Assembly: GCA_021927905.1 (NCBI GenBank)
Contig: BLLK01000025.1
Span: 310,001 to 374,000, forward strand
Length of the DNA: 64,000 nt
Direction of reading: 5' to 3'
From: Chaetoceros tenuissimus
Taxonomy: Eukaryota > Bacillariophyta > Thalassiosirophyceae > Chaetocerotales > Chaetocerotaceae
Within the stretch, counting starts at the first letter, position 1. The number at the start of each line of letters is the position of its first letter. The translations under genes and the position numbers were made by a program. A model generated the notes under the pieces. The model saw only the letters and a program-made list of their open reading frames with translations, was not told the origin of the DNA and made no database searches. Below, one piece after another: positions 9,516-41,425 of the stretch.

Positions 9516-11783
9516 ATGACACAAGAGATGAATATATCTTATGATGATTCTATGTATACAAATGCAACTACCCATTTGATAGTCCCTGGGCTATTTGACA
9601 ACTTTCAGACTGCCGCAACTCTGATCCGTATGGCAAGACAAGATCTTCCATGGAAAGCATTACTTGGTGATGAAGGAGAAGCAATCGTATCTGACTTTTA
9701 CAGCTTGTTGCAAAAAGTTGAAGAGTCTCGAACATCTAGAGATGTATCAAGTGTCGTGAGTAAAAAGTTTATTATTGAAATTGAAGGTGTTGATGGATCT
9801 GGTAAAACAAGTCTAGTTCAAAATCTTGCGAAATCTCTCTATGGAGCAGCAGTTAAGACGCCATCATCGTCCCTTTCGGCTATTCGACCTCTTTGGGATC
9901 ATCGTGGAGGTATCCTCGCGAGAGCTTTTTATTTTATTACAAACTATATACTTGAATATGAGATACGATCTGGAATCATATCCGAGGATATCATTGTTAT
10001 TGATAGATGGTATGCGTCCACATTGGCATATACAGTTGCTTATCGACCTGATTTAGATACAGAAGTCAATTTGAGTCAATTGCCAAGTGAGGTATTTCAA
10101 TGGCCAAGTGATTTGCATCTCAAGCCGAATGTCATGCTTCTTTTGGATATAGATCCACAAGTGCGACAAGATCGAATAGAGAATCGAAAAAAGGAAGGCG
10201 GTGGAGCATCGCGCTTCAATCCATGGGATGATCGATTGGCCACAGTTCCTAATCTTGCAACAAATATCATGGATGCTTTCAAATCTGTAAAAGGTCCTAT
10301 ACGTACTCATGTTTTGAATGCCAATGGGACAAAGGTTCAAGTTCAGAAGGATGCCATGGATATTATACAAAAATATTATCAGCAAGATTTGAAACCTCAA
10401 GAGTTCTTTGAACATGACCCATTGAATTGGTTACGGAATGATGCTATGAAACTTGGATTATGTGATGAAGATGGACGTAGATGCCATCATGCTCTTTGGA
10501 ATTTGCAAGTTTCTTTTTCGACAGGCACTGCCACTCCACCTGTATTGAAAACAGTAGGACTAAATCATGTTGATTCAAATTGTATATATTATTGGAGCTC
10601 AAGCTCTTTACTCGATGATGAAAACTGTAACAATGGAGTGAGTAGTTCTATCTTGTGGTGCGCTGGAGATTATCCATTGGAATTCCAATGGAGGTCAGAA
10701 GGCTTCCTGACACGAGTTACAAAAGATGAGTGTTTACTCTATAGATTGAAGCCTCCAAACTCTTTGCGAAAACATATATCCGCATGTGAACAAAGTGTTG
10801 GTGCCGCTGAAAATGAATTGTTTCTCGGTCGAAGTACACGAAATGACTCCTACGATAATATAGTGAACAAGTCTGCCGAAATGAATGAAAGTGAATCATG
10901 TACAAACACATTATGGCGATTTTATCCTTCTCGGATTGAAGTTTTGAGAGGCGGTCCAAGTACACGTATCTCAACATATCCTCAACGATGGGAATGGATT
11001 TATAAAAGTGGGCAATGGCAGATGAGATCAATCTTACCATTTACTCCTACCACTGCCCTCACCTCCAATTGTGGAGAAGGAGTGATGAATACATGGAATT
11101 TGTCTAGTATGACGGTCGCAATCATGGGATCACATGCAGCGGGGAAATCTACCATAGGAAAACGTCTCTCGGCTCTATTAGGATGGGAATTTCATCAAGA
11201 ATTGGGAATGATTCTTAGGAATGAAAGTGAATTGGTTGCAAACGGTCATATGCATGGTAATGGTAGTGAGGCTTCAAACAAAGATGAATGGGATTCTTTA
11301 ATTTATCAGAAAGAATGTGAAAGAGATGTAGCCGCATCATCTTCAAAAACATGTAGAGTCGTGGAAACTTGGCACGGAGGAAATGCGTCGTGGTGTCATC
11401 TACGAAGGAATTACATGAAAGTAAAAGATTTCGAAACAGCATTTCTCCCGAAATATGTTGGTGCAATATCGAAACACGCTGAATTATCTTCTGTTGTTTT
11501 GGTCTTTCTAAAAATTAGCTCTAGTGATGTTATCCTTCATCGAAGAAAGCAGGATGCGACGGCAGTGAAAAGACTTCCTTTAGATGATGAAGTCAATGGT
11601 GTGAGCGATCTTTTTGAGTTGAATGATACATATATTTGCGAATCCATAGCGAAATTCACGAAAGTCCCACTTTTGATTGTTGATAATACTGAAAATGGCG
11701 AAGAAGCAATCCATAATACCTTGAAATCAATATTGGTATTTGTAAAGAATCATTCTCATGATCGAGTGAGATACTCTAGATAA
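9516..11783 (+). CDS. CMPK2-like: CMPK2-like UMP/CMP (thymidylate-kinase-fold) kinase fused to a second P-loop kinase-like domain
   Basis: A 755-residue intronless frame. After an 85-residue leader, a thymidylate-kinase-fold domain starts with the P-loop GVDGSGKTS at 91-99. It continues with ARAFYFITNYILEYEI, the DRWYAST motif, and VFQWPSDLHLKPNVMLLLDI followed by an Arg-rich lid. This order and wording match vertebrate CMPK2 as I remember it. CMPK2 phosphorylates CMP and UMP and is the usual neighbour of viperin. Residues about 300-520 form a region I do not recognise, containing repeated WRFYP/WEWIY/WQM aromatic segments. A second P-loop (GSHAAGKST, about 538-546) opens a C-terminal nucleotide-kinase-like domain of about 215 residues. 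The gene converges on viperin at 12973-11927. Inferred role: supply of CTP or processing of nucleotides for ddhCTP production. No targeting peptide is evident. Confidence 0.85.
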   Translation: MTQEMNISYDDSMYTNATTHLIVPGLFDNFQTAATLIRMARQDLPWKALLGDEGEAIVSDFYSLLQKVEESRTSRDVSSVVSKKFIIEIEGVDGSGKTSLVQNLAKSLYGAAVKTPSSSLSAIRPLWDHRGGILARAFYFITNYILEYEIRSGIISEDIIVIDRWYASTLAYTVAYRPDLDTEVNLSQLPSEVFQWPSDLHLKPNVMLLLDIDPQVRQDRIENRKKEGGGASRFNPWDDRLATVPNLATNIMDAFKSVKGPIRTHVLNANGTKVQVQKDAMDIIQKYYQQDLKPQEFFEHDPLNWLRNDAMKLGLCDEDGRRCHHALWNLQVSFSTGTATPPVLKTVGLNHVDSNCIYYWSSSSLLDDENCNNGVSSSILWCAGDYPLEFQWRSEGFLTRVTKDECLLYRLKPPNSLRKHISACEQSVGAAENELFLGRSTRNDSYDNIVNKSAEMNESESCTNTLWRFYPSRIEVLRGGPSTRISTYPQRWEWIYKSGQWQMRSILPFTPTTALTSNCGEGVMNTWNLSSMTVAIMGSHAAGKSTIGKRLSALLGWEFHQELGMILRNESELVANGHMHGNGSEASNKDEWDSLIYQKECERDVAASSSKTCRVVETWHGGNASWCHLRRNYMKVKDFETAFLPKYVGAISKHAELSSVVLVFLKISSSDVILHRRKQDATAVKRLPLDDEVNGVSDLFELNDTYICESIAKFTKVPLLIVDNTENGEEAIHNTLKSILVFVKNHSHDRVRYSR

Positions 11784-11926
11784 AAGATATGGAAAACATG
11801 TACAAACTAATTGCTTCCTATAGTTTACATTATATCAATTTTTCTAGTTTCCCACTTGGTAGAGTAACTCATTACTGCAAAGATACAACATGCGACTATT
11901 GCTATAATCCCCTCTATGCGTTCTAT

Positions 11927-12973
11927 CTATTTCTCCCTCTCCCATTCATACACTCCGCCACGCTTTTGAAACATATCGTGATCAAATCCAGCTTGGCTCA
12001 AAGCCTTTTCAACTCCAACCATTAGAATACTTTCCGAAGGTACTTTTCCACCTCGAGAGCAATCAAGGAATCTCAATTCTTCGTCTAGAAGTAAATAAGA
12101 GTTTTGCATCACGTCATTGCTTTCAGGAATGAGCATGCTTTGCCCCTCATGTCTTTTACAAAATGCATCAAACTGTTCTTTGGTCACTTTCAACTTGGTA
12201 GCATCGCGCAGGTCTCCTGGACGTCCTGAATTCTCTCCTTCTAGTATCAAAACTTGAAAAGCCTTCCAGCGATATGGATCCAACATTTCCACTTGAGCAT
12301 TCATATCCTCTTCCCAATTCAAACTACAAACAACAGTATTCATTTTGAAAAGAATACCATGTTTCTGACACATTTCTCTCACTTGCAAAACCCTATTCGC
12401 ATGATTATTATTAGCATCTCCACCTCTACCAATCAAAGCATTGGTATTGGGATCAAAACTATCTACACTGACACCTAATACATCTACAAATTTCCCATAG
12501 GTATCCATCCATTTTGGCGTAATCATGGATCCATTACTAATAATAGATACAGCCATATCTAATTCACAAGCGTGTCTACATAAATCTCCCAACAGGGTAG
12601 GATTCAAAAATGGTTCCCCGCCTGCAAAATTGATTTTTTGTGTTCCGCTTTCTTTCAAAAGCTTGAGACCATACTTTGCTTGTTCGAATTGGAACTTGTT
12701 TGTGTTGGTTTGTGTATGAAAGCAGAATTTACAGGAGTAGTTGCATTCACGTGAGATGAAATAGTTTACAGATTTGACAAGATTTGAAATGTCTTTGTTT
12801 TGGTCCTTTAGATACTCCTTCTGTTGTTGCTGCTCGTTGGAGAATGATACGTTGCATTTCGTAGTACTAGGAGTTTGTGCGAAGATGTAACTAGAACTGT
12901 GAAATGCATTTGTGGTAGTGCTCGAAAGAATCATCGAGAACAGAGCCGCAGACATTCGATATGGAAACTTCAT
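11927..12973 (-). CDS. RSAD2: Viperin (RSAD2-like radical SAM ddhCTP synthase), predicted plastid-targeted
   Basis: A 348-residue protein from the ATG at 12973. The radical-SAM cluster motif CNYSCKFC is at Cys77, Cys81 and Cys84. It is followed by KINFAGGEPFL, SIISNGS, SVDSFDP, ALIGRGG, the EEDM...RWKAFQVLILEGEN segment, ESNDVMQNSYLLLDE and KRGGVYEW, all in the order of animal viperin. Viperin converts CTP plus SAM to 3'-deoxy-3',4'-didehydro-CTP, a chain terminator of viral polymerases. The chosen start gives a hydrophobic signal peptide ending TTTNA|F, the diatom plastid bipartite motif with Phe at +1, followed by a Ser/Thr-rich transit-like stretch. An upstream in-frame ATG at 13051 would bury that signal. 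The animal amphipathic ER helix is absent, and the chain ends EREK instead of the Trp needed for the cytosolic Fe-S machinery. It converges with the CMPK2-like gene. Confidence 0.95.
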   Translation of the reverse strand: MKFPYRMSAALFSMILSSTTTNAFHSSSYIFAQTPSTTKCNVSFSNEQQQQKEYLKDQNKDISNLVKSVNYFISRECNYSCKFCFHTQTNTNKFQFEQAKYGLKLLKESGTQKINFAGGEPFLNPTLLGDLCRHACELDMAVSIISNGSMITPKWMDTYGKFVDVLGVSVDSFDPNTNALIGRGGDANNNHANRVLQVREMCQKHGILFKMNTVVCSLNWEEDMNAQVEMLDPYRWKAFQVLILEGENSGRPGDLRDATKLKVTKEQFDAFCKRHEGQSMLIPESNDVMQNSYLLLDEELRFLDCSRGGKVPSESILMVGVEKALSQAGFDHDMFQKRGGVYEWEREK

Positions 12974-13436
12974 TTTAGAAACTATGGGTACAATATTGGT
13001 GTGGAAATATAGATGAAGTAATCTAGGAACCGTAGCTAGGATTGCTTTCATGAAATGTAAATGAAGATGATAGAAGGTTCTCAGGTATGGAAGAAGAAAG
13101 AGAGTGAAATCAAAAAGATACGAAAAAGATATCTCGGACCAAGCGTGACGACGTACAGACCATTTATGTGGCTCGGACTTTTATCTTTATTTGGCTAGAA
13201 CATATGACGTTGACATGAATAGGTTATCAGATGACACGACATTGGTTCATTTTCTCTTTTCACTTGCTTTCACATGTTGTGTAATAATGCATAATGCAGC
13301 ATGCACAATACTCACTCCTCGATACTATCTTTCACTTACTGATTGCAAATATATCGGAAAATTTATTGACGATGCAAGTTATATTTAAATCTCTAGTTAG
13401 ATTGCATTGCTATTAGTTCACAGAAAGAATCTCATC
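12974..13436. promoter_or_regulatory. Divergent promoter region of viperin and the F-box-like gene
   Basis: 463 bp separate the viperin start from the plus-strand start at 13437. An in-frame upstream extension of viperin reaches 13051. I see no ISRE-like or otherwise named regulatory motif that I can defend. Confidence 0.4.
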
Positions 13437-16065: not shown

Positions 16066-19000
16066 ATGAAGTTTATTTCATCAACATTACTACTTCCACT
16101 TTTCCTTTTTGGAAAAGCATCAGCTGCACCAGCGATCTCATGTGGATCGGTTGTCTCTTCGAGTTTGACTCAAGTAGATGGTAAGGTGATTTCTTTGAAG
16201 TTTTGCAACTTTTTTTACTTGTTGGTTCATAAATGACTTTTATCCATTCTTTCATGCAAAATCTCTAATATTTTACTTCTACAAACCCTTCAGGATCTAG
16301 TACATCTGTAACAGTTGCACCTAGTGATTCAGACACTTTGTGTATGATGTTCCGTGTCACAGCGATTGGAGATGCTGACTTGAGCACACTCACTGCTGAT
16401 TCAAACCTTGCTGACTTTAACATGGTACCTGTTGCTCGCTCTTGGAATGGCAGTGCTTGGCAACGCATTGCTGGAGCATATTCTCAGGACCTTGAAGTGA
16501 CCCCTCAAGGCCAGGGATATAAACTCACTATTCCAGTTTTGCCTAATCTGCAACCTGGAGTATTTGTTTTGATGCCTTTCTCTCATAGCCTAGGTCCGAA
16601 AGAAACCGTTTCTCGTTTCTTTCATCAGACGACCTTCGGACCAACTCTTGAGTTGATTAATGATATGGTTACAAGTGGCACTTCTTTTGAAAACTGGGTT
16701 CAGACTCAGATGAATGCTGATCAAACTCCAATCACATCCCATCGTGAATACTTTCGTAGAAATGTAAATGGAGAGCTTGACCAAGATCAAGAGGGACTTC
16801 GTAGAAACCCTCAAACCTACAAAGTTCGTAATCCGTGTGATGCCGGTGCAAGATGGGTCAAATATGCATTTTCCATTGATGATCAGAATGCATACTTTAA
16901 CATCACAGCACAGGAAGATGGTACCTTTGACGTCTACCACTTGGGTGATAGATACCCTAATCCAAGATACATTGACTTTAGAACCAAAATGAATGCTTGG
17001 GCTGGAGAGGATGGTACTCCACTTGATCCTGGTATCTACACAATTAACAGAAGAGGTACAGATTCTGTGGGGGCAAGAGTGAGATTTTACAGCCTCGCGA
17101 CTGGAACAAGCCATTACATTTTGGGCGGAAATCCACAAGTGAACGTGCCACCTGGAACTCCTGGTGTGTCTTTCATTGACCTCCCTGCGGAGGCAGAATT
17201 CATTGATACTCCCATGAGACGCAAGGGATCAAGAACTTCTGAATTCTACGATGACACCATGTACTTGAACTATCCTATTTCAAATGTATTGTGTGATACT
17301 TTTGATCACAAGAACACCAAGAATGATTTTATTGGAGTATTAGGTGGAGGTTGTGTCGATGATTGTCAAGTGCGTTATGGAAGATATGTTGAATTGGATG
17401 AAAACACCATCGACAGTCCTGATCCAACTGGAGGCGGAGATGTTGAGGCCTGTGCTAATGTCCCAATGAATTTCCTTAATGCTGACTCCTGTAGAGTTGT
17501 GACAAATGCTTGTACAATTAGACCACCTTCGGAATGGAGAAACAGAGATCAATATAACTATCTTGATGAGACTGATGCTATTCTTGTGTGTGGTTCTGCA
17601 GGTGAAATTGCAAACAATCCAAGTGGGAGATCAGTGTTCGGTCTAGATGAGGCAAGTGAGTTGAAACGTGGTGGTGCTGCTGGGAGCCAGAAGCAATCCG
17701 CTTGGTACATGGTAGCGACTGAAGAAGCTACTTTGGACCAGCTGAGACAGAAAGTAGCTTGGGCATTGAGTCAAATCCTTGTCGTTTCCACCAATGCAAT
17801 TTCTGTTCCGGATCACTCTGAGATTTTCTTGAACTACTATGATATCTTTGTCAGGAATGCATTTGGAAACTATTTCGATATCTTAAAAGAAGTTAGTTAC
17901 AGTCCTATGATGGCAGAAATGCTTTCTTATTTGAATTCGCAAAGTTTACCATACGTCTTTAGAAATACCGGACTCCTATCTTTTCCTGATGAGAATTATG
18001 CAAGGTATGTGTCAAAAGTTTTTGAAAGTTGTGTAGAACTAATTGATACTGCAATGAAACTAACATCTTTTCCTTTGTGTCTCCTCAGAGAAATCATGCA
18101 ATTGTTCAGTATTGGAATCCACAAGCTTAATATTGATGGAACTCTTGACCTTGATGTGAATGGAGAGCCTCAGCTTACTTACGTTGACAACGACATTCAG
18201 AACTTTGCTAGAGCATGGACAGCTTTTGAGAGGCAAGGCAGAAGAGCGAACTATGAAAGTGAGTATTTGTTCATGACTCTACCTTATATTTTTATCATCA
18301 TTCTTCTAACAATGGCCCCCTATTGTGAAACCTAGACGAGGGAAGCAGTGTCAACAGATTGGATCCAATGAATATCTATGCACCTTACAGAGATTTCAGT
18401 CCAAAGTTTGGTCTTGATATCAATGGTGTCAGAGGATATATTGGAGATGGATACCCATTATGTGTTGATCTTCCTAATCAGCATTTCCTCAAGGCTGGTG
18501 CAACTTACCGTTTGCTCGGATCTTCCAGATGGTCAATGCTTCATACTATGGACGATGATTGGTTTAGAAGAAATTACTCGACTCTTGTATCTGAAACTTC
18601 TCCATTGGCAACTTTTCTCTGTAATGCTGATGCTAATGGCGATTGCAATTTTCTTCCTGTTGCTAGTTTAACTTCAGACCTTACATGTGCAGGCCCAGAG
18701 TGTGATGTAGACACTATCCGTATTGTAAAGGTCGCAAGTAATCCAGATATCTATTATGAATACTCCCGTGAAGCGTGTGTAGAAACAACCTTCTACAGTA
18801 ACTCTCGCAACATCCAATCTGCCAGTACTTCTTCATCCCTCAATAACAGAGCCATGTGTGCTAATGGTGATCTTCCTCTTGCTATGGAAGCATGTTGCAA
18901 TAGTGGTTCAACTGAAGGTATCACTTTTTGTCAACATTCTGTCGATAAGACAACCTTTGCTACTGCATCGGGTCGCTGTGGTACAGGAAATTATCAACAA

Positions 19001-22000
19001 TACCCATTGACGTGCTCATTCACATCCAAAAACCTTTCCAACAGTAATTATGAATGTCACTTGACGAATTACATCGACAACTATTACTGGGCATCTCCTG
19101 ATCCATGTATCCTAAAGGCGAAAGGTGAGTTTTTCTTTTTTTCTACCATATTAGCATTGGAACTACTTTCTAACAAATGAATTTCTACACAGTTTCTGAT
19201 TCTGGTACAGTTGCTGTAGTACATTATCCAGTCACGTCTTCTAACCACAACACTGAAGAAAATGCAGATGAATTCAATTTGAACTTCTTCAACGTTGCTT
19301 GGGACACAGCTTATCCTAGTGTAGCAGCTGGTACCTGCCAAACTACAAACGGCTGTGAGGTATTTGGACAGGATTGTATTTGCGAAGTGAGCATTGCTGA
19401 TAATTCGGTCTTTGTTTCTCTGCCAAGTGCAAATGACGTTTTGAATACACTCAAGGTTGGAGCTGTAGATGTGACAGCATCTAGTGAATACTCTCTACTA
19501 GGGCAGGCAGGTGGCGTCGAGGCTTACCAAAAGAATGGCGGAGGCTATGATGCTGAAGCTGTATTCAAAGTTCAAAATTCATTTTACAAGAATCTGAGAT
19601 CTGAGGTTCTTATCGGAGGTGGTACTTTTTCTTTCAGAAACCCGGTCCAGTTTTTGAACCCAGCTCTTCGCGAACCACGCGATGCAGCACATGAAACTGA
19701 TGCTGTTTTGAAGCACTACTTTGAACATCCAAACACAGCTCCATTTTTGGCTTCTCGAATGATCCAGCGTTTTGGTACTTCCAATCCTTCTCCAGCCTAT
19801 ATCCAAGCAGTAGCAGAAGCTTTCAGAGACGGTACATACTCTAGTAATGGCGTTGTTTTTGGTCAGGGTGACTATGGATCCATGGAAGCTATGGTTGCTG
19901 CTATTGTTCTTCATGAAGAGTCTAGAGAGGTTATCCTTGATGCAGATCCTACTTCGGGATCTCTTCGCGAACCACTATTGAAGTTTATTGGATTCATGAG
20001 ATCACTCAAGATCACACTAACAAGTGAATTCCCAGAGCTGAGATTACCTAACTTGAGGGATCGACTTGGGCAGAACGCACATGATATTCCATCGGTCTTT
20101 TCCTTTTTCCTTCCAGAGTATGCTGCCCCTGGACACGTTGAAGCCGCGACAATCACCTCTCCAGAAGCCCAAGTGATGAATGGCCCAGCACTCACTGCGC
20201 ACGTGAATGGGTAAGACTTCTTCATGGTGTTTTCTCTTTTGTGGTGTTTCACTTCCTAACAATTTTGTTTCATTTTCAGACATTTTTCTTTGATTGAGAC
20301 TGGATTGAATAATTGTTACAATGGGTAAGATTTTGTATTGAAATGATATTCTTTCATTATGATGTAACTCTTCTAACAGAAAGTTTACTCTTTAGATTTG
20401 GTGATAATGGTGCTAACAGATGTGGCAATTTGAGAGCGGATCAATATGATGTTTACCCGCTTGCAACTAATTCCAAAGGCTACTTGACATATGAACCAAG
20501 TGTATCTGGAGCAGCAGCTGTTGTAGATGAACTCGCACTACTGCTTACAGCTGGAAGACTAAGTCCTGATAATAGAGCACTTCTTGAGGATGCTTACAGT
20601 AGCTTGAACGGTTTGGAATCTGCATTGAAGCTGATTACTACTACTCCTGAATTTCATACCACTAACAGTGTGAATAAGGATGCAGGTCCACGCCCTAGTA
20701 CCTCTGTGACAGGAGGGGAAAGCTCTGATTACAAATCAATTGGTAAGGCTTCTGTTCATTTTTTCCTTCTACATCTATTTCTTTGACTTTTCTAACAAAA
20801 TGATTAGTTTTCTTTAATTTATCTGGAGGAGCCGATACATTTCACATTCTCGTGCCACATACCTGTGCTCAGAAGGATATGTATGCGAATTACGCTGTTG
20901 TCAGAACTGATATTGCATTACCAAAGGAATCGCTTCATACCATTGACGCTACTGGCTCTAACCAAATCTGTGAAACATTTGGAATCCATGAAAATTTGCC
21001 AATCCTTAAGACTCTCTACGATGATAATGATCTCATGTTTGTCTCTAACATTGGTGTCCTTCAAGAGTTCGCAACAAAAGCAAACTGGAGAGAGAAGCAT
21101 TATGAGACTGCACTGTTCGCACACAATGCTCAACAGGCAGAGATCCAGCGCATGGATATTTATGAACAGCAGACTGGTAGAGGTGTTGGAGGTCGTATGC
21201 TTGATGTTCTTTCCAAGAGTGGTTACAAAACGAACGCACTTTCAATCAGTGGAACCCCACCAATTCTTTCATCCTCAATGACTCCTCTTCTCACTGTCCC
21301 ATCTGCTTCAGGATATGAGAAGGTAGATGTTATGTCAGGTAGTGATACCACATATACTTCAAGAATGAAACAGCTCAACCAAGCTGCTAAGGTTGGATCC
21401 AGTCTCATGTCCGAAACATACTCATCCTTGTTACAACAGGGGTTGGACGAAAACGAGTTGTTGTACGATGCGTTGCAAACTACCACAGTTGATACAATTT
21501 TCCCAACAGATTCAATTGGACGTCAAGTTCAAACTGCTGCGACTCTCATGAAGACTAGAAATGTGAGAGGTACAGACAGAGATATTTTCTATGTTACCCA
21601 AGGTGTGTTTTTCTAAATCAATTTATGATCGATTTTGCTCTCGAGAAATGCGATTAACTCATTTGTTTCTTTTGTATCATAGGTGGATACGATACTCATA
21701 GCGATATTCTACCAAGATTCATGAACTTGGCTACTGACCTTAACGATGCTATCGAAGCTTTTGTCAACGAGACAAAGGCCCAAGGACTATGGGATTCAAC
21801 TACCATTGTTATTACTACTGAGTTTGCTCGTACATTGACAACAAATACAGGTATTGGAAGTGATCATGCATGGGGTAAGTTTTGAATCGTTTTCGTAATC
21901 TTTTCCCCTTTCAAAAAATATCAACAAACTCATATGTTTCTTTCGTTTCACAGGTGGAAACGCAATTGTGCTTGGAGGTGCAGTAGATGGAGGAAAGATC

Positions 22001-22894
22001 TTGGGAGAGTTCCCGGACGAGTTGGACTACAATCAAGGAGATGCTGCTCCTCTCGTCATCAATAGACGCGGTGTCCTTCTTCCTACAACCCCATTTGAGT
22101 CTATTTGGAATGGTATTGCTCAGTGGTTTGGAATTACTAATAATAGTGATCTCGATGAGGTACTACCAAACAGAGCTACTTTTGGTGATGCTTTGTTTAC
22201 TGCTGAGACAATGTATGGTTTGGTCACTACAAGTGCTCCAACTACATCTCGTGCTCCAACAGCGACTACTCCATCACCTACACCGGCAACTCCAACTACC
22301 AGTGCTCCTACAAGCAGCAACAACTTTGACTGGTTCATCAATGATTTCGGCACTATTGATGTAGAGCTAGGATCATCTGTTCGCTTCGTTTGGGATACTA
22401 ACCAGAATCACGATGTACACATCAGTCCAGATGGAACAACCTGCAACAATCTTCAACCATATCCAAATGAACAGAGTGCTTACACCCCTGGAATTGAATA
22501 CCCATTCACAAGCCTTGGACCAATTACTTTTGTTTGTAAACAACATTGTGGATCAGGACAGAGAGTCACCTTCAATGTCATTGAGGCAGTCACTGCTGCC
22601 CCAACGGTATCTTCTTCTCCTACGGTATCTTATGTACCAACAGCAGCTCCATTAGACTGTGCTACTATTGACAACAGAGATGTTTGTCAAGCTGAGACAG
22701 GTTGTACTTGGACTGGTGGTAAAAACAATGGAAGCTGTTCAAACGCAGCTCCAGCTCCTTCTCCAGTTGCAGAACCAAGTACAGGCCAAGGACCAAGTGA
22801 ATGCTTGTCCGCAGGTGCTACATGTAAAAATGGTGGCCAGTGCTGTAGTCTGAACTGCTCAAGAGTTGGAGGTGTAAAGCAATGCATCGGATAA
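16066..22894 (+). CDS. Secreted DUF1800-DUF1501-cupredoxin fusion protein (ten exons)
   Basis: Exons: 16066-16180, 16294-18004, 18089-18258, 18336-19124, 19193-20210, 20280-20324, 20396-20742, 20808-21602, 21683-21874 and 21954-22894. All introns are GT-AG and 65-113 bp, and the frame is kept for 2040 residues. A signal peptide (MKFISSTLLLPLFLFGKASA) is followed by a DUF1800 domain (FHQTTFGPTLELIND, FPDENYAREIMQLFSIGI, REPLLKFIGFMRSLKIT, FFLPEYAAPG). A DUF1501 domain follows (VFFNLSGGADTFHILVPH, GGYDTHSDILPRF, TTEFARTL). Then come a Thr/Pro linker, a phytocyanin-like cupredoxin with a His-Cys-His-Gln copper site (HDVH, CKQHCGSGQ), and two small Cys-rich modules. DUF1800 and DUF1501 are usually separate adjacent genes in bacteria. 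Exon 6 is only 45 nt, and intron 2 (84 bp) contains no in-frame stop. The function of both DUFs is unknown; the location is secreted or cell surface. Confidence 0.9.
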
Positions 22895-25337: not shown

Positions 25338-27981
25338 TTATTTCACTATACGTGTTTTTTGCAAGTTTCTTTTCTCTACTCGTACACTTTTCTTTTGAAA
25401 ACGCAAAGGCACAATAGTCGACGTGTTGTTACTGGCAACTGTTGTATCCAATACTTCCAAGTTTGCCAGTGGTATGAAAGATGGTCGACCATGAGCACAA
25501 CTAAAAGGATGATTGCAGCCTGCTAAAGATTTTAGAAGGTCTTTGCATTCTGTAGCTGACAAAGTGTCTCCAAACATAATTGCATATCTACATGCGTAGG
25601 ACGCCATACATCGCTTGAGAAAACTTGGCTTCATGAGAGAAGTTCCTCCAGAGCTCAAGACTTGAACAAATTGCAAAAAGTCCTTTTCAGTTGACACTTT
25701 TTCACCAAATTGCAATAATCCCTTTATTTGCAAGATATTGGAGCTCGGATCGTGGTCAAAGTCATAGTGGTACTTACGCAAAATTGTTCCATACCTCGAC
25801 ACAGTCTCGTTTTGAGTATGTGTGAGAGTTAGGGTCTTAGGGAGAGATAAGGATTTGGACTTGAATAAGTTGCGCATGTTGATATTTTTCAATTTGCTCA
25901 AACTAAAAAATGTCTCCTCATTTTTCTCACTTGATGAAAGACATTTCTCTACAGCTCTTTCAATACGCTCCAGTCCTACTCTTTCGTCAGCTGCATGTTG
26001 GTCGATGACACAGAGAAGGCCATCCATATCAACAATAAGAAATTTAGAATCTAGTTGGGCAATAAATCGTGCTCTTGAAAGCATTTCTTTGGTGATTTTT
26101 ACTTCGCTTTGAGATGCACTTTCTGTTACTGACTTTATTTCTTGTTGGATAGATTTCAACTTTGACTTTGTCCACTTCAATGCATCAGGCTCTATATTTG
26201 ACGCTTTTACTTTGGATGGACGCTTTAGAGAAGGAAGAATTTCTTGACTGGACTTTGTTGGTTCCGAAAAGAAGGCTTCTGCAAATAATTTATCATCTAT
26301 ATCATTCTCCTTCATGACTGATCTAGAAGCAATGCATCTATTTTCCTTGTTGATTTCATCACAAGTATTTAGAGATGTCTTTTCATCAAGAATGTCGCAC
26401 ACTTTTCTGGATGCAGTTTCTTTCATATCTACATTTGGATTCAATTCACATCCCAGTCCATTTTCAGTTAGAAAGTGAGCAATAGCATCGGAAATGCAAC
26501 TTATCAGACGATCTTTCTCTCGAATACGAGAGTAAGACTTCCACTCATCCACTACTAAATCAACAGCGCTATTTGGGCACATGATGTGAATGAGAAATGA
26601 CCATGAATAGAATGCAGCATCTACAAATAAAGAGAATGAGATTAGATTCAAAAGTGAAAAGGTTACATACTAAAACTTCCTACTTACTGGTGGAACACTT
26701 CTTGAGATCCTTTTGAATTTTATCCGTGATACTTGAATGATTCTTGAGTGGTCGGTTATTCAAAAATACATACTCTTGCTGCCTTGAACGATTAGATATC
26801 GCTGATGCCTCTTCTGTTTCATCAAACTTTTCTTCCTTGTAAATCAAGACTCCACATACTTGCCAATCTCGAGAAGAAGCATGTCTTGTAGATCTTGCAA
26901 TCCTTCCATGAAAGGAACGTGAAAAAGCCAATGTAGAATCTACTCCATTCCTATTCCTCTCTCCTTCGGAATAATAAAGATCCAGACAAGTACCACCACC
27001 TACAACACAATCAAATCTTGCACATCGTTGTCTCAGCAATTGACAAAAGGATCTCTGCGAATCAACCGTAAGACTAAGAGATTCCAAAATGGTACTTCTC
27101 TCCCAAGGCAAGGTTTGCAACCATACTGCATCTGGTTTACAATTCAACTCATTTTGAACAAATAATCTAATAGTCACGTGTGGAAATGCAAATGCTAATT
27201 CTTGCAGACATGATCTAACTTGTCCTATCCGTAAATGATGCTGTGGATCATTTCCCCTTTGTTGATTCTGCAATTGAAATTGTCGAAGTCGAACTTGATG
27301 TTTGTGAAATAAACCAGAGAGCGTAATGGATGTCCCAGACTTGATGTTTGATTCAAAGGAAAGTCTCGACTGGAATGAAACAACTTTTGAATTTCGAACT
27401 AGTTTTTCACTTGTTGTAAAGGATTCAATATCATTCATTGTAGGAATAGAGTTGTTGAATGTCTGACTTGATCGTTTGGCTTTGGAAGGAGCACTTGTCA
27501 ATCCTCTATAATTGTCACGTTTCTTTTTTAGATTTGCTCGAGTCGACTGGACTTGAAATTCAATACTCAATGCAGCCAATGCCTTGAGAGATTCTCCTCG
27601 ATGAGATGATTCATGATTATGTATAGAAACTTTATTGTGCGAGTTTGGCTTGGAGGTACAGTGATGAGTACCAATCAAATCCCGTAAAGCTGCTTCATCT
27701 ATACCAATACCATCATCACTGACTGTCAACATGGTTGTTGTATTTCTTGTACCAGTGATTGAATTGGTTACATGTCCAATTGTTACATTTACTTCCAATG
27801 CTTTTCCATGTAGGACGGCATTTCGTACAAGTTCTTCCAAAGCTCGATAGACTGATCCGATGATTTGACCTCCTCGTACAAAGTCACGCGTTTCTTCTGG
27901 TAAGAGTTGGACTCTTCTTTCCATTCGATTCAAGTTGGCTGGTCGAATCCCATTGATGCTTTGAAAGTTTCGTTTCTTCAT
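25338..27981 (-). CDS. MLH3: MutL homologue, MLH3-type DNA mismatch repair/meiotic endonuclease subunit
   Basis: Two exons, 27981-26688 and 26620-25338, join across a 67-bp GT-AG intron in frame (858 residues). The N-terminal GHKL ATPase has the Glu/Asn motif EELVRNAVLHG (about 49-59), DDGIGID (89-95) and the RGESLKALAAL lid. It also has the SGTSITLSGLF and YVFLNNRPLK elements of MutL proteins. A low-complexity linker precedes the C-terminal domain, which carries the endonuclease metal motif DQHAADERVGLE starting near residue 638, fitting DQHA(x)2E(x)4E. Near the end are ACRYAIMFGD and CAHGRPSFIPL, the Zn-binding Cys-x-His-Gly-Arg-Pro motif of MLH3/PMS2. The nicking subunit normally pairs with MLH1 in mismatch repair and crossover formation. 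Loss of the CPHGRP Pro (here CAHGRP) and the overall wording favour MLH3 over PMS2. Confidence 0.9.
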
Positions 27982-28257
27982 GATTCATTTCATTTGAATG
28001 TATGAGTTGATGTAAAGAAGAACATGAACATAAGGATTTGAAATAGATGAGTGGTGCGATGTGATCGAAGGGAAAGACAAAAAGAGAAGATGCAAGATGG
28101 CAAGGGAGCTAAAATATCCATACCATATAGCTACATAATGTTTGTGGCTAGCCGTAAAGTCGCATGATGAATATTATGATGGTATTCATGTGCAAAGGCC
28201 TTTGGGCTTTTTGCTAGTAGTTCTAGATTTCATCGTTACTAGATCTTGTCAAAGATA

Positions 28258-28740: not shown

Positions 28741-30123
28741 TTACAAGCTAACCTTCTCTAGTAGATCTACGGGCATCTCCTTGACCGACTTCTGAAGCTT
28801 TCGAAACTGTTTGTCTGCAGCTTTTTTGCATTGCTTTGCAGTTTTATTTCGCATGCCGTCAACCTCGCAGAATACAATGTATTCAAAATCAACACATGTC
28901 TCGAAATCTATAAACAAAGTCTCGATTGCCATTTCGGTGCATGAAGGTGGTTGAGACGCAATGTCCTCCACATGAATGATATATTTTTCAAGTTCTTCTT
29001 TGATTTGTTTGAATTCAGCAATAGAAACGAGTTTATAATCTAGAAATTGTGAAATCTGACCAATCTCTTTTCCCATATTCATATTGACTATGATTCGATG
29101 GGTGTTTCGAAGAGTTTTTTTACAAAAGAGTTGTAATGCACTTTGAATGAATTCAGTATAGGATTGTCCAAGCTTCATTTGCTCCATTTGCTTCTGTAAA
29201 TTGTTTCTTCGGATGGATTTCCATCCGCGAAAAAGATCTGATTTTAGACTGACTCCTGCACATTTATTGCGAAGTTTGAACATGTCGATATTAGCAGCAT
29301 TCATATTTTCTAATACACTCTTTGTGATTCCAAGCGCTATAGTAGTTTCACATCTTTCTCCCAACTCTTTCGTAGAAATAATGACAAAGTGATTGTATCC
29401 CTGGTCACTTTCTAAAGTTGGTTCTTTCAATATTTTCCTGATCTCTTTTTTATGCTGTTGACTCAAATCTGCTATTGCTACAGCTTTTGGTTCCTCTGCC
29501 ACAATAAAAGTTTGAGCATTGTAATTGAATTGAACTTCTATGAGGACAGCTTTCACAAGTGGTTGCTGCTCTATGCCGTTTTTCTTGAGGGCGAGATATA
29601 CTGCGCCACTGCAACATGACTTTGTTCTTGATTTCGTTACCCAATTTTGAAAAAGATTATAAATATTCATCTCTCTCGAATCAAAAGATGTTTCCAAATG
29701 TTTCAATGTTTCACAATGAAACTTGCACAGACTTTTATGTCTTGACCAATCCTCGACTTGGCACTCTCGGCTACAATAAAACACTTTTTTGCATTTTGAG
29801 CACATGCTTACTTTTGATCCGATATCATTATCTGTTTTCAAGCATTTAGCACAACATTGGGTGTATATACGGAGTTGAGATCCCTTCTTCGTTTCTTGTT
29901 TGGCCTCCTTGTTGGCACTTGACTGTTCTTTCTTCAAGTCGACAGTGGATGTTTTCTTACAAACAGATTTATGCATCTTCCATAGCTTCACCTGGCACTC
30001 GCGGTTGCAGAAGAATACATCAACACCGGCGTCACGGCAAGGGGCACATCGGAATACTGCTCCTTCCTTATTGCAAGCTGCACATGGGGCAGTAGGCTTC
30101 TTAGCAGTAGCAGTAGAGGACAT
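28741..30123 (-). CDS. Double MYND zinc-finger protein (paralogue A)
   Basis: A 460-residue frame. Two MYND fingers are seen at about 14-55 and 91-133, each with the C-x2-C, C-x2-C, C-x3-C-x7-H-x3-C layout (CAAC, CAPC, CNREC, then H and C; the second with CSKC and CSREC). The rest is a conserved helical/sheet region with no SET, ankyrin or other partner domain that I recognise. It ends in a Lys-rich helix and the terminal LEKVSL shared with the paralogue at 33562-34953. MYND fingers bind proline-rich peptides in partner proteins; the partner here is unknown. Its upstream region is interrupted 73 bp before the ATG by a DNA transposon. Confidence 0.85.
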   Translation of the reverse strand: MSSTATAKKPTAPCAACNKEGAVFRCAPCRDAGVDVFFCNRECQVKLWKMHKSVCKKTSTVDLKKEQSSANKEAKQETKKGSQLRIYTQCCAKCLKTDNDIGSKVSMCSKCKKVFYCSRECQVEDWSRHKSLCKFHCETLKHLETSFDSREMNIYNLFQNWVTKSRTKSCCSGAVYLALKKNGIEQQPLVKAVLIEVQFNYNAQTFIVAEEPKAVAIADLSQQHKKEIRKILKEPTLESDQGYNHFVIISTKELGERCETTIALGITKSVLENMNAANIDMFKLRNKCAGVSLKSDLFRGWKSIRRNNLQKQMEQMKLGQSYTEFIQSALQLFCKKTLRNTHRIIVNMNMGKEIGQISQFLDYKLVSIAEFKQIKEELEKYIIHVEDIASQPPSCTEMAIETLFIDFETCVDFEYIVFCEVDGMRNKTAKQCKKAADKQFRKLQKSVKEMPVDLLEKVSL

Positions 30124-30196
30124 GGCTTAGATGATGGATTGTAGTATTGAAAATGACGACGCAATGATCTAGATAGGTAGGCACGGTATGAATTTA

Positions 30197-33561: not shown

Positions 33562-34953
33562 TTACAAACTCACTTTCTCGAGTAGATCGGAAGGCATCTC
33601 CTTGACCGACTTCTGGAGCTTTCGAAAATGTTTGTCTGCAGCTTTTTTGCATTGTTTTGGAGATTTATTTTGGATGACATTTACCGCACACAATACAGTG
33701 TGATCAAAACCAAAGCATATATTAGAATCTGTAAACAAAGTCTCGATTGCCATGTCGGTACATGGAAGTGATCGAGACTCAATGTCCCCCACATGAATGA
33801 CAAATTCTTGAATATCTTCTTTGTATTCTTTGAATTCAGCAATTGACACGACTTGATAATGTAGTAACTGGGAAATCTGACCAATCTCTTTTCCCATTCT
33901 CGTATAGACCACGATTCGATGGGTATTTTGTAGAGACTTGTTACAAAAGAATTGCAATGCATTTTGAACAAAAGCAGTATAGGATTGTCCAAGATTCATT
34001 TGCTCCATTTGCTTCTGCAAATTGTTTCTTCGGATGGATTTCCATCCACGAAACAAATTTGATTTCAGGCGGACTTGTGGACTTATATTGCGAATTAAGA
34101 ACATGTCGATATCAATAGCATTCATCTGATCTAATTCACTTTTTGTGATTCCTATCGAAATTTTATGAAAACATCTTGTACCCAACTCTTTCGTAGAAAT
34201 AAAGACAAAGTGATTGTATACCTGGTCAATTTTTTTAGCTGGCTTTTCTTTCAATATTTTCCTGATCATTTCTTTATCCGTTTGATGTAAATCAGCGATT
34301 GCCACAGCTCTTGGTTCCTCTGCCACAACAAAAGTTTGAGCGTTGTAATTGAATTCAATTTCGATGCGGACAGCTTTCACAGGTGGTTGCTGCTCAACTC
34401 CTTTTTTCTTGAGAGCATGATAAACTGCGTTACTAAAACATGACATTGAACTTGTTTTCCCTACCCATTTTTCAAAGAGATTATAAATATTCACCTCCCT
34501 TGAAGAATCAAGAGAACTTTCTACATTCTTTTTGATTTCAGAATTATGCTTGCAATATTTTTTATGTGTTGGCCAGTGCTCCACTTGACACTCGCGGCTA
34601 CAGTAGTATGCAGAATTACATTTCGAGCACACGCTCAATTTGGATCCGATATCAACACCTGTTTTTGAGCAATTATCACAATTTTGGCTGTCTTTGCGGA
34701 GTTGACGTCCCTTCTTTCTTTCTGCTTTGGCCTCCTTGTTAGCGTTTGATACTTCTTTTTTCGGGTTGCCATTGGATGATTTCTTGCAAACATCTTTATG
34801 CGTCTTCCATAGCTTCACCTGACAATCGCTGTTGCAGAAGAACACATCCACACCGGCGTCACGACAAGGGGCGCATTGGAGTACTGCTCCTTCCTTGTTG
34901 CAGGCTGCACATGAGCCGTCGTTAGGATTCTCACTAATTTCTGTAGAGGGCAT
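33562..34953 (-). CDS. Double MYND zinc-finger protein (paralogue B)
   Basis: A 463-residue frame closely related along its whole length to the gene at 28741-30123. Both MYND fingers keep all zinc ligands (CAAC, CAPC, CNSDC, then CDNC, CSKC, CSREC). The central block (LFRGWKSIRRNNLQKQMEQM, LGQSYT) and the C-terminal LEKVSL are nearly identical, while the linkers have diverged. The intact frame in both copies implies that both are kept functional. Its promoter lacks the transposon seen upstream of paralogue A, so the pair may be expressed differently. Confidence 0.85.
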   Translation of the reverse strand: MPSTEISENPNDGSCAACNKEGAVLQCAPCRDAGVDVFFCNSDCQVKLWKTHKDVCKKSSNGNPKKEVSNANKEAKAERKKGRQLRKDSQNCDNCSKTGVDIGSKLSVCSKCNSAYYCSRECQVEHWPTHKKYCKHNSEIKKNVESSLDSSREVNIYNLFEKWVGKTSSMSCFSNAVYHALKKKGVEQQPPVKAVRIEIEFNYNAQTFVVAEEPRAVAIADLHQTDKEMIRKILKEKPAKKIDQVYNHFVFISTKELGTRCFHKISIGITKSELDQMNAIDIDMFLIRNISPQVRLKSNLFRGWKSIRRNNLQKQMEQMNLGQSYTAFVQNALQFFCNKSLQNTHRIVVYTRMGKEIGQISQLLHYQVVSIAEFKEYKEDIQEFVIHVGDIESRSLPCTDMAIETLFTDSNICFGFDHTVLCAVNVIQNKSPKQCKKAADKHFRKLQKSVKEMPSDLLEKVSL

Positions 34954-35274
34954 GTTGTATATGATGGACTGTAGCCCTGAATATGACGATGCAATGATTT
35001 AGATAGTTATGCAAATTTAGAAGTTTATGTTTCATCTCTCTCAGCTCCAGATCTTCTCTTCTTCTTCAAATGTTGTCATTTAAGTCTGTTGCTCTCTGTC
35101 AATACAATACTTTAGCATAACATCTGTATTGGTCCCACCTAGAAAGATTAGAATATTTTAATTTTGCATATGGACACTATGGGCAGTGGTTAGCCAAATT
35201 TGAAATGGAAAACAGATTCTTTTCCCCATTCTATTATTTTATTCAGTCTATATCGCCCCATGCATCTTGTGCTA
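34954..35274. promoter_or_regulatory. Upstream region of MYND paralogue B with empty transposon site
   Basis: The first 65 bp match the 5' leader of paralogue A (gacgatgcaatgattt against gacgacgcaatgatct). The TA at 35018-35019 is the pre-insertion target, and 35070-35150 matches 32446-32530. The rest is the 3' flank of the next minus-strand gene. Confidence 0.7.
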
Positions 35275-39158: not shown

Positions 39159-39763
39159 TTCAATTTTTTTGGTCATTTCCCGTGCGCAAAATTTAATGTA
39201 ATGGTTTCACCGAGAAATTGCAATGAATGATACCTTGAAAAATATCTATTATATCTTCATGATCTTATTCGTGAATGTTTTGGCCGCATATCCCAGCATG
39301 CTGGTGTGGACTCTACTCTCTAATATAAAACTAAAGATGCATTTCGCGATTCTGTTGTAAGAAAAACGAAAGATTGATGTATCTTCATCACAACATTTAT
39401 ATAAAAATATAAAGCGAATATGGATTAGTAAGAAATGCACTGATGAAAATATTATATAATAATCAAAACTTTCTATTAAGAATGAAGTTCTTGTTGTCTG
39501 GAATATTTGTTGTCTACATAGTTTAGAAAAGAAAGAAGGAAAAATGAAATACAATGACGTTTCTAAACCGTTATCGAGTCCTATCTTCTAGTCCCAACTT
39601 CCCTATCTTTTTTTTTCTGTTTTTGCTTTCGTTACATCAACTAGTACGTACTTGCTTGAAGGGAGGTCAACTACGACAAAAGTACACCAATGACAAAATC
39701 AAAATCGAATACAACTTTTCGTCATTATATTTTCTTAATCGAAACAAGTACATTGAGAGCAAA
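39159..39763. other. Intergenic region, no gene seen
   Basis: About 600 bp upstream of the ubiquitin-like fusion gene. The reading frame is open back to 39554, so a 70-residue N-terminal extension cannot be excluded. Otherwise nothing is recognised. Confidence 0.45.
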
Positions 39764-41425
39764 ATGAAGATATCTTGGCGATTCATATTAGCGGCATTTC
39801 TATTTTCGACTGTACTATTCAGAAAGTCGGAAGATGACGAGAGATTCAATGTATTGTGGTTGCTGGAAAGAAAAGAATTTGAAAAATTGAGCTTGAATGG
39901 CGTGAAGCGACTCAAATGCGTTAGTGATGATGATGAAGTCATTTCCCATAGTAATCGTATGAAGGTTTATGTCAATACACTTACTGGAAAGACCATCATT
40001 TTTGATGTTGAAGCATCCGATACCATCTACAGTCTAAAGTCCAAGATTCAGGATAAGGTGGGAATTCCTCCGGATCAACAATGCCTTATCTTTGCTGGAA
40101 AGCAGCTTGAGGATGGACGTGGCTTTTCTGACTACAATATCGAGCAAGAGTCTACCCTTTACCTTAGAGTCCGTCTTCAAGGTGGTGGCAAGAAGAAGAA
40201 TGGGAGCAAACACAAACAAGTGGATGAAGTAACAATGAACATCTGTCCAGTTGGGGTGGAACTCGAAATCTATTCGGATATTGAACAGAAATGGAATCGC
40301 AGTGGTACAGTCATTGCGAGTGAAGACAATTCTATCAAAATCAAAATCAAAGGTAGTAATGAAGAAATTTGCTATTCTCTAGAAGAGATTGCTTCGCTTT
40401 TCTTGCAAGGACATGTTCGTCGGAGAAATGAAGGTAGTAGCCCTTCTGAAGATCCCAATCTCATCTTTTATGGCGATAGTTATTGGTCGATAGAAGACTA
40501 TGAAGAACTTGGATTCGATGAAGATACTCCAGTCGATACTGCTGAAAACTTGGAGCGGAAGACGATGAATTCAACCTCTTTGCGAAACGCATTTTTCACT
40601 ACTCGTGAAAAGAGAGAGAAATTCAAAATGGTGGAAGTTGAAGGGGGTGAACTCTATTACCAGATTTACAGAGCTTTTGAAAGAGATAATCTTTTAGAGA
40701 ACAAGTTATACAAGAAGTTTCTCGCCGATCCGGTAATTGTTGAGATGTTGAATCAAGCATTTTTGGAAGAGGGTATCATTGGCATACTACCATTGTTGAT
40801 TGGGGCTTTAGAAAATGCAGACATTAATGTTTTTGCTGAAGGTACCTTTCCATTATTTAGTAAAATCATGAATTATCTAGGAATTACCACGATCAAAGAA
40901 CTTATGAGTTGGGTTGAGGCAATGAACGACGCCACATCCTTGAGTGTCTTAATGATCCTTATCAATCGGTGCCCTTTCCTTCTGGATGCATGTATCATGA
41001 CCAGTATCAAGAAGCACAAGAATAACGAGAAGATAAAGGAACTTATTCGCGTCATCTCTGAGAAGATTGCGTACTGGAACAGGACTGTGATGCCAGAAGC
41101 ATTCCGTGTCATCAAGGACTTTTTGAAGGATGGATCGAAGTCGGTCGATTTCGATTTCAGCTCTGAAGAATTTCCAAAACACTTTACTGGGTTTGACGAA
41201 ATGATAGATGCTGTAGATGATGAATTTCAAACTCAGTTGAAGATGAAAGTCAACCATGTCTGTGTACAACCGGGGTACAGAATCAATGGGTTTCCTAAAA
41301 AGATCTACGATGGGTTTTCCAAAGGAATGGATGATTTTCAAACTTTTTGTCAAAAGTTTGATACAAATAGTCCCAACATTGAACGCATTGATTGCTTCAT
41401 ACAGCTGGTGTTAGAGGTCGAGTAA
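39764..41425 (+). CDS. Membrane-anchored ubiquitin-like-domain protein
   Basis: 553 residues from the Met at 39764, chosen because [19 protein letters not shown] forms a signal peptide or anchor; the frame is open to an ATG at 39554. After about 65 residues a nearly complete ubiquitin fold follows ([71 protein letters not shown]). The ubiquitin C-terminus RLRGG is replaced by RLQGGG and runs straight into KKK and a 400-residue C-terminal region. Lys48 and Lys63 equivalents are retained (AGKQLEDGR; the second lies in IEQES, where Lys63 is Gln-Glu and therefore lost). The C-terminal region is helical and unrecognised. The ubiquitin unit probably acts as an interaction domain; processing by a deubiquitinase is uncertain. 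The next gene starts 30 bp after the stop. Confidence 0.75.

Follow-up and report, generated by a model that had tools for sequence, protein, structure and literature searches.

A viperin gene and a CMPK2-like multidomain kinase gene lie tail-to-tail in the genome of the diatom Chaetoceros tenuissimus

We examined a 64,000-nucleotide stretch of DNA from the diatom Chaetoceros tenuissimus (contig BLLK01000025.1, positions 310,001 to 374,000; hereafter the window), in which an intact gene for viperin, a radical SAM enzyme, converges upon a gene for a nucleotide kinase of three parts, in which a middle region separates a CMPK2-like domain from a further kinase-like domain with a P-loop. We favour, with somewhat better than even confidence, the explanation that a viperin of eukaryotic type and a CMPK2-like kinase were kept as neighbours through serving one pathway. 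A first-pass annotation of the same DNA had proposed a full viperin gene tail-to-tail with a CMPK2-like kinase gene; the gene pair stands, and the open reading frame (ORF) coordinates bear out the 143 bp between the stop codons, but the middle region, the second P-loop domain, the presequence of viperin and the difference in orientation from vertebrates had been overlooked. The genome searched was the window's own assembly (41,027,912 bp, 68 contigs), in which the window is G000:C18:310001-374000. The features under discussion are as follows.

9516..11783 (+): gene for the CMPK2-like multidomain kinase, 755 aa, no predicted signal peptide (ORF, Pfam, genome search)
9738..10415 (+): domain A of the kinase (aa 75-300), thymidylate-kinase fold of CMPK2 type (BLASTP, trees, alignments, AlphaFold2 model, Foldseek)
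10416..11078 (+): middle region of the kinase (about aa 301-521), no recognisable family, one genomic relative on contig C54 (L085)
11079..11783 (+): domain C of the kinase (aa 522-755), another kinase-like domain of P-loop type with GSHAAGKST as its Walker A motif (sub-threshold matches, subfamily not assignable)
11784..11926 (no strand): convergent intergenic stretch, 143 bp, stop to stop
11927..12973 (-): viperin (radical SAM) gene from the preferred start, 348 aa (ORF reading, profiles, PDB match, alignment)
12905..12973 (-): predicted signal peptide of viperin, 23 aa, cleaved between TTTNA and FHSSS and followed by a Ser/Thr-rich stretch, a plastid-type presequence (von Heijne score)
12974..13051 (-): optional 26-aa in-frame N-terminal extension of viperin from an upstream ATG, which lowers the signal-peptide score

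Judged from profiles, alignment and tree, the ORF at 11927-13051 (-), which encodes 374 aa when read from its first ATG and 348 aa when started at 12973, is an intact viperin, as the first-pass annotation held, and is of eukaryotic type. It passed the cut-off of 180 bits for NCBIfam NF038283 with 263 bits, scored 336 bits against TIGR04278 (under that model's own cut-off of 450) and 253 bits against PADLOC pVip, and in a phmmer search of the PDB matched 7n7h and 5vsl, the latter of which we take to be mouse viperin, at 300 bits (E 1.7e-88 for 5vsl). The CxxxCxxC of radical SAM enzymes is formed by C103/C107/C110 (374-aa numbering). Pairwise, 143 of 297 aligned residues were identical to mouse viperin, and 24 of the 30 mouse positions examined were identical, all three cluster cysteines being kept; the kept positions include N77, C84, C88, C91, K120, R194, K220, N222, R245, K247 and Y302, which presumably serve in cluster or CTP binding, and those that differ are 124, 172, 197, 217, 274 and 304. 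For the viperin tree (79 rows) 74 of 80 prokaryotic loci from the genome scan could be used, L024 and L041 having no readable viperin ORF and four others being too short. The diatom protein grouped with 5vsl, 7n7h, 9dfw and 9dfn (Shimodaira-Hasegawa-like approximate likelihood ratio test, SH-aLRT, 100), apart from the 74 prokaryotic viperins, and branched first within this group of five, where 9dfw and 9dfn adjoin mouse viperin and 7n7h; the group contains mouse viperin but is not thereby a eukaryote-only clade. Two Asgard-titled loci (L061, L076) were placed elsewhere in the same tree, on a weak branch. In the literature, the last eukaryotic common ancestor likely already had viperins (PMC10732462), and eukaryotic viperins are sister to Asgard viperins (PMC11291487).

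By its sequence, the first kinase domain is of CMPK2-like character and not that of an ordinary dTMP kinase. Domain A carries the Walker A motif GVDGSGKTS, a DRW motif and arginines R220/R224, and Pfam Thymidylate_kin matched kinase aa 89-226 at 43 bits. Human CMPK2 and DTYMK entered all comparisons as sequences that we take to be those proteins. In BLASTP against domain A human CMPK2 came first with 79 bits, versus 27 for human DTYMK and 22 for the diatom's own thymidylate kinase (TMPK; L002), and for this domain the name CMPK2-like given at first pass holds. Twelve TMPK-type kinases linked to viperins elsewhere scored 27-54 bits, nine of them at least 35; the top bacterial kinase was L033 (Latescibacterota, 54 bits) and the lowest were L031 (a fragment, 32), L012 (30) and L077 (27). 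Canonical TMPKs scored 22-34 bits, L124 excepted at 43.5; L121, L122, L125, L127, L131 and L132 had no usable ORF, and L137-L140 stood outside the BLASTP comparison. The kinase tree was built from 23 of 38 collected rows, leaving out same-gene duplicates, the near-copy L009, the fragment L031, four kinases of a second type, domain C and L042. Domain A joined human CMPK2 (support 94/91) and the viperin-adjacent L033 kinase (96/94), eleven canonical TMPKs split from the domain A side (99/98), and L002 paired with human DTYMK (100/99), away from domain A. The result stayed when the tree was repeated minus the long-branch L012 row (92/82, 99/95, 97/94), and without the human rows the split of domain A from the canonical TMPKs held (98/97).

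The AlphaFold2 model of domain A, built from 12 sequences, had a predicted local distance difference test (pLDDT) of 78.7 and a predicted template modelling score of 0.80. With Foldseek, 43 of the 50 listed PDB hits were thymidylate/dTMP kinases, and the first match in a viral structure library was the dTMP kinase of Tetraselmis virus 1; template modelling scores of these structure matches were about 0.5-0.7. No solved CMPK2 structure was found in the PDB with the human CMPK2 sequence as query, and therefore the PDB cannot decide between CMPK2 and TMPK for domain A.

The rest of the kinase was less readily placed. The middle region matched zero families in Pfam, NCBIfam and PHROGs. A protein search of the genome found one ORF on contig C54 (L085:1504-2028 (-)) matching kinase aa 378-510 (E 8.3e-4), and the reverse search from this ORF returned only itself and the kinase (E 3.1e-4, 25 bits, 31% identity); a second C54 piece, upstream and in another frame, aligns colinearly to kinase aa 302-333 (41% over 32 residues). 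Neither piece had a significant Pfam match. Because of the reciprocal match and the colinear second piece, the middle region probably constitutes a genuine domain, one found outside the kinase as well. The C54 locus itself (G000, near 1256641; L085:1504-2404 (-)) is a gene in at least two pieces, akin to this region. Domain C, scanned alone, gave Pfam matches below cut-off (AAA_18 18.9, AAA_28 18.1 bits), NadR as best NCBIfam model (20 bits) and deoxyguanosine kinase as best PDB match (13.9 bits). It had no clear relative in 39 prokaryote genomes, with weak matches around the P-loop in 2 of the 39, nor in 194 genomes of the phylum of G001, with a P-loop-region match in 1 of the 194. We considered whether domain C might belong to the second, cytidylate-kinase-like type of viperin kinase and rejected this as unproven: it scored 35 bits at best with L023, L059 and L046, the likeness being to the P-loop only, and 15 bits with VakA. 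A single-sequence model of the full-length kinase (pLDDT 32) was set aside unused.

Pairing of viperin with a kinase was also seen among prokaryotes. Of 78 prokaryotic loci whose viperin ORF could be read, 16 had a kinase-like partner. In 13 of them this was an ORF of 90-215 aa no more than 750 bp away on the same strand, with the P-loop at its N-terminal end; in the other three (L023, L046, L053) a P-loop lay inside the viperin ORF but outside its radical SAM part. The size and distance limits were chosen after the list was seen, and many loci were cut by contig ends. No opposite-strand ORF within the same limits was found among the 78 loci. The count agrees with the earlier remark that prokaryotic viperins often sit beside kinases and is near the published figure, i.e., CMPK2-like kinases adjoining 15% of bacterial viperins (PMC11249213), where human CMPK2 is given a bacterial origin separate from that of viperin. 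The diatom pair likewise has differing nearest relatives: L033 has the top bacterial match to the kinase, yet its viperin is not near that of the diatom. In the Verrucomicrobial viperin L053:7509-8861 (+) the P-loop lies in an N-terminal extension (this without a profile check), the reverse of the C-terminal fusions L023 and L046. L042 was rejected as a viperin-adjacent kinase; it is the sole TMPK match of its genome, of canonical type, 1.1 kb off and on the other strand.

A pair making antiviral 3'-deoxy-3',4'-didehydro (ddh) nucleotides is the best reading because both families so act elsewhere and the residues are kept. The kinase would raise CMP/UMP towards the nucleoside triphosphate, its second P-loop domain perhaps performing a further step of the phosphorylation path; viperin, via radical SAM chemistry, would turn CTP (possibly another pyrimidine triphosphate) into its ddh analogue, which would terminate viral RNA synthesis. 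Both genes may have descended vertically, and their linkage may reflect this common function. Each gene is single-copy, the protein search of the 41.03-Mb genome yielding a second full copy of neither, and each ORF, as read, is intact and free of interruptions.

Several observations weigh against this reading. When domain A was forced together with the canonical TMPKs, the approximately unbiased (AU) test gave p 0.056, and formal rejection was not reached. Without the human rows, the join of domain A with L033 dropped to 41/29 and drew the program's long-branch warning. Domain A matched phrog_761, named thymidylate kinase, at 96 bits (a match without a control), NCBIfam DTMP_kinase at 48 bits (below the cut-off of 83), and PDB thymidylate kinases at 22 bits. 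PADLOC models VakA and PDC-M51B scored 34 and 69 on domain A, and 22-52 and 31-62 on six canonical TMPKs; since these controls score alike, we rejected the PADLOC match as proof of a viperin kinase. The N-terminal part of CMPK2 was not detected in the kinase when a piece of that domain, taken from the human stretch preceding the kinase, was compared (score 16, shuffled mean 19).

The arrangement of the genes counts on the same side. The first-pass annotation had written of the same pairing as in vertebrates, and this does not hold for the layout: human RSAD2 and CMPK2 are transcribed divergently from a common promoter/enhancer region (PMC12889620), being adjacent and inverted (PMC10058120), whereas the diatom genes converge. 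As they converge, their linkage cannot act through one promoter, as it does in human. No shared upstream element was found in comparing the 300-bp upstream regions of the two genes: the longest common word in the same orientation was 8 bases, which 385 of 500 shuffles reached, and the longest inverted word was 10 bases (a figure without shuffle comparison). Selection for co-inheritance, overlapping 3' ends, or history remain as candidate causes of the linkage.

The last such point lies in the N-termini. Viperin has a plastid-type presequence and the kinase no signal, which suggests that the two enzymes may occupy different compartments. Scored with what we take to be the von Heijne matrix, viperin reached 6.49 from the ATG at 12973, cut exactly between A and F, and 1.11 from the ATG at 13051; the kinase N-terminus scored at best -0.22, and, as regards a mitochondrial presequence, its first 11 residues (MTQEMNISYDD), covered by the signal-peptide scan, include three acidic ones. 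The base at -3 is A for the viperin ATG at 12973 and T for the upstream ATG, and we prefer the former as the better-placed start. As read from the sequence, the 20 residues past the cut contain 8 Ser/Thr and zero acidic residues. Light-harvesting proteins of the genome served as positive control, 30 loci giving 23 rows. An A-F motif was present in 15 of these, which scored 4.0-7.8, a range that takes in viperin; the cut fell exactly between A and F in 5 of the 15 and two residues beyond this point in the remainder. The other 8 rows lacked the motif as read. Among 56 background ORFs, taken from the window and five other 10-kb stretches with up to 4 start codons allowed per ORF, 7 scored at least 5, and 3 of these had Phe at +1, viperin among them. 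Diatom plastid import is marked by Phe at +1, where W, Y or L may also stand, and by a transit peptide rich in hydroxylated and poor in acidic residues (PMC4329603), and with the matrix used here the combination of signal peptide, Phe at +1 and transit-like stretch was found from the second ATG only. Entry of viperin into the plastid or the endoplasmic reticulum (ER) is likely from these marks. The extension at 12974-13051 (-) (MKAILATVPRLLHLYFHTNIVPIVSK) has zero acidic residues and by eye looks mitochondrial; the alternative starts could direct viperin to two places.

Two explanations build upon the presequence. It is possible, and we put it forward tentatively, that the viperin module was re-built in the diatom, with viperin sent into the plastid or the surrounding ER and a single three-part cytosolic kinase as its partner. 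If so, ddh-nucleotides would be made in or beside the organelle, and an antiviral enzyme of the cytosolic face of the animal ER would work through the photosynthetic compartment. Rather unlikely in our view is that viperin was re-routed to the secretory path or plastid and works there, on nucleotide pools of the plastid or of its associated ER, in such a way that the cytosolic kinase is no direct feeder, the linkage being a relic or due to some other shared role. The score from the better-placed ATG, the Phe at the cut with its few acidic and many hydroxylated neighbours, the standing of viperin in the background scan, and the absence of a signal on the kinase all speak for such re-routing. 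Against it, the matrix is one that we take to be von Heijne's, and the scan gave each background ORF a choice of up to four starts; were translation to begin at the upstream ATG, no signal would be left; the prior is not tiny, since about 8% of diatom proteins qualify as plastid-imported with high confidence (PMC4329603); and the hydrophobic N-terminus could instead be a membrane anchor, comparable to the amphipathic helix of vertebrate viperin.

Improbable, though compatible with the convergent orientation and the lack of an upstream element common to both genes, is that these are chance neighbours, i.e., a housekeeping nucleotide kinase beside viperin without functional meaning. The three flanking ORFs scanned with Pfam gave no sign of a defence cluster (one 2OG-Fe(II) oxygenase match, two without a significant family), in keeping with that view. 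Against it, with 18,705 predicted genes in this genome (PMC8613185), the chance of immediate adjacency for two named single-copy genes is about 2/18,705 (1e-4); a canonical TMPK (L002) is present separately in the diatom; and human and bacteria likewise have viperin linked to a kinase of this sort.

Codon use of both genes was host-like: log-likelihoods per codon were -1.064 and -1.050 (local range -1.095 +/- 0.062) and the GC contents at third codon positions were 0.29 and 0.37 (local 0.350 +/- 0.057), against a background of 37 local ORFs that included viperin and the kinase themselves. In plasmids the TMPK part had 4 matches, all weak, and three of these carry the annotation dTMP kinase. 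That the pair was acquired recently by horizontal transfer, be it from a bacterium or a virus, is very improbable, for although both genes are uninterrupted as read and bacterial loci holding both exist, viperin sits with mouse viperin in the clade of five rows and not among the 74 rows of the genome scan, codon use is that of the host, no viperin or kinase relative was confirmed on viral contigs (four pattern-based scans), and phages gave no kinase match and weak partial viperin matches in 6 records.

A literature search found no paper combining viperin, CMPK2 and diatom. Viperin and Chaetoceros occur together in two oyster papers and in a lipid-droplet review, where viperin appears in the reference list alone. 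Eukaryotic viperins are reportedly linked genetically with nucleotide kinases (Shomar and colleagues, 2024, Nat Ecol Evol). Viperin-kinase pairing as such is thus already known; what sets the diatom apart is a kinase of three parts, genes that converge, and a viperin presequence of plastid type. A review mentions viperin in green algae, and the main text of a paper on RNA-seq of infected Chaetoceros tenuissimus (PMC12305248) makes no mention of viperin, radical SAM, or nucleotide or thymidylate kinase. Any antiviral role of viperin outside animals and prokaryotes, and any co-travel of its kinase partner, are hard to approach in protists, and are here directly testable because Chaetoceros tenuissimus is grown in culture along with the RNA and DNA viruses that infect it, both infections being covered by public RNA-seq data (PRJDB19534). 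An altered kinase together with a possible organelle address would show how an old immune pair is re-wired in algae.

Elsewhere in the window, the neighbouring ORFs at 28741-30126 and 33562-34998 (-) are paralogous; both have MYND zinc fingers by Pfam, and their C-terminal stretches are closely alike. Two adjoining ORFs at 25338-27984 (-), with a match to GHKL ATPases (HATPase_c) and a MutL C-terminal domain, probably make up a single mismatch-repair gene of MutL type that an intron or a frame break divides. The run of ORFs at 16269-22894 (+), the first with a DUF1800 match, is possibly one intron-containing gene, and a 625-aa ORF at 39548-41425 (+) contains a ubiquitin domain (PF00240, 80 bits). 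Tandem Repeats Finder marked long arrays at 53577-55844 (-) and 60797-64000, whose periods are 60, 90, 183 and 288 bp; the former encodes Ser/Pro-rich repeats (PSDQPSLLPSSMPSDIPSDV).

Compared with known systems, domain A has the thymidylate-kinase fold of the canonical dTMP kinases (Tmk/DTYMK), but unlike these it is without an EPGG/FP-type stretch after the P-loop, and it is the diatom's own TMPK, not domain A, that goes with human DTYMK. The prokaryotic pVip/VakA pairs and pVip-kinase fusions resemble the diatom locus in having a TMPK-type kinase beside viperin; whereas, the prokaryotic pairs counted here are co-directional or fused, the diatom pair is convergent, and its viperin groups with mouse viperin and not with the prokaryotic viperins. 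From the vertebrate RSAD2/CMPK2 locus, divergent with a common promoter region, the diatom differs in its convergent layout with no upstream element found, in the plastid-type presequence of its viperin, and in a kinase with an extra middle region and second P-loop domain, in which the N-terminal part of CMPK2 went undetected. The same two enzyme families are nonetheless neighbours in both, and domain A has the K(S/T)P...RAFY...NYI and QWPxDL(x)LKP stretches in common with human CMPK2.

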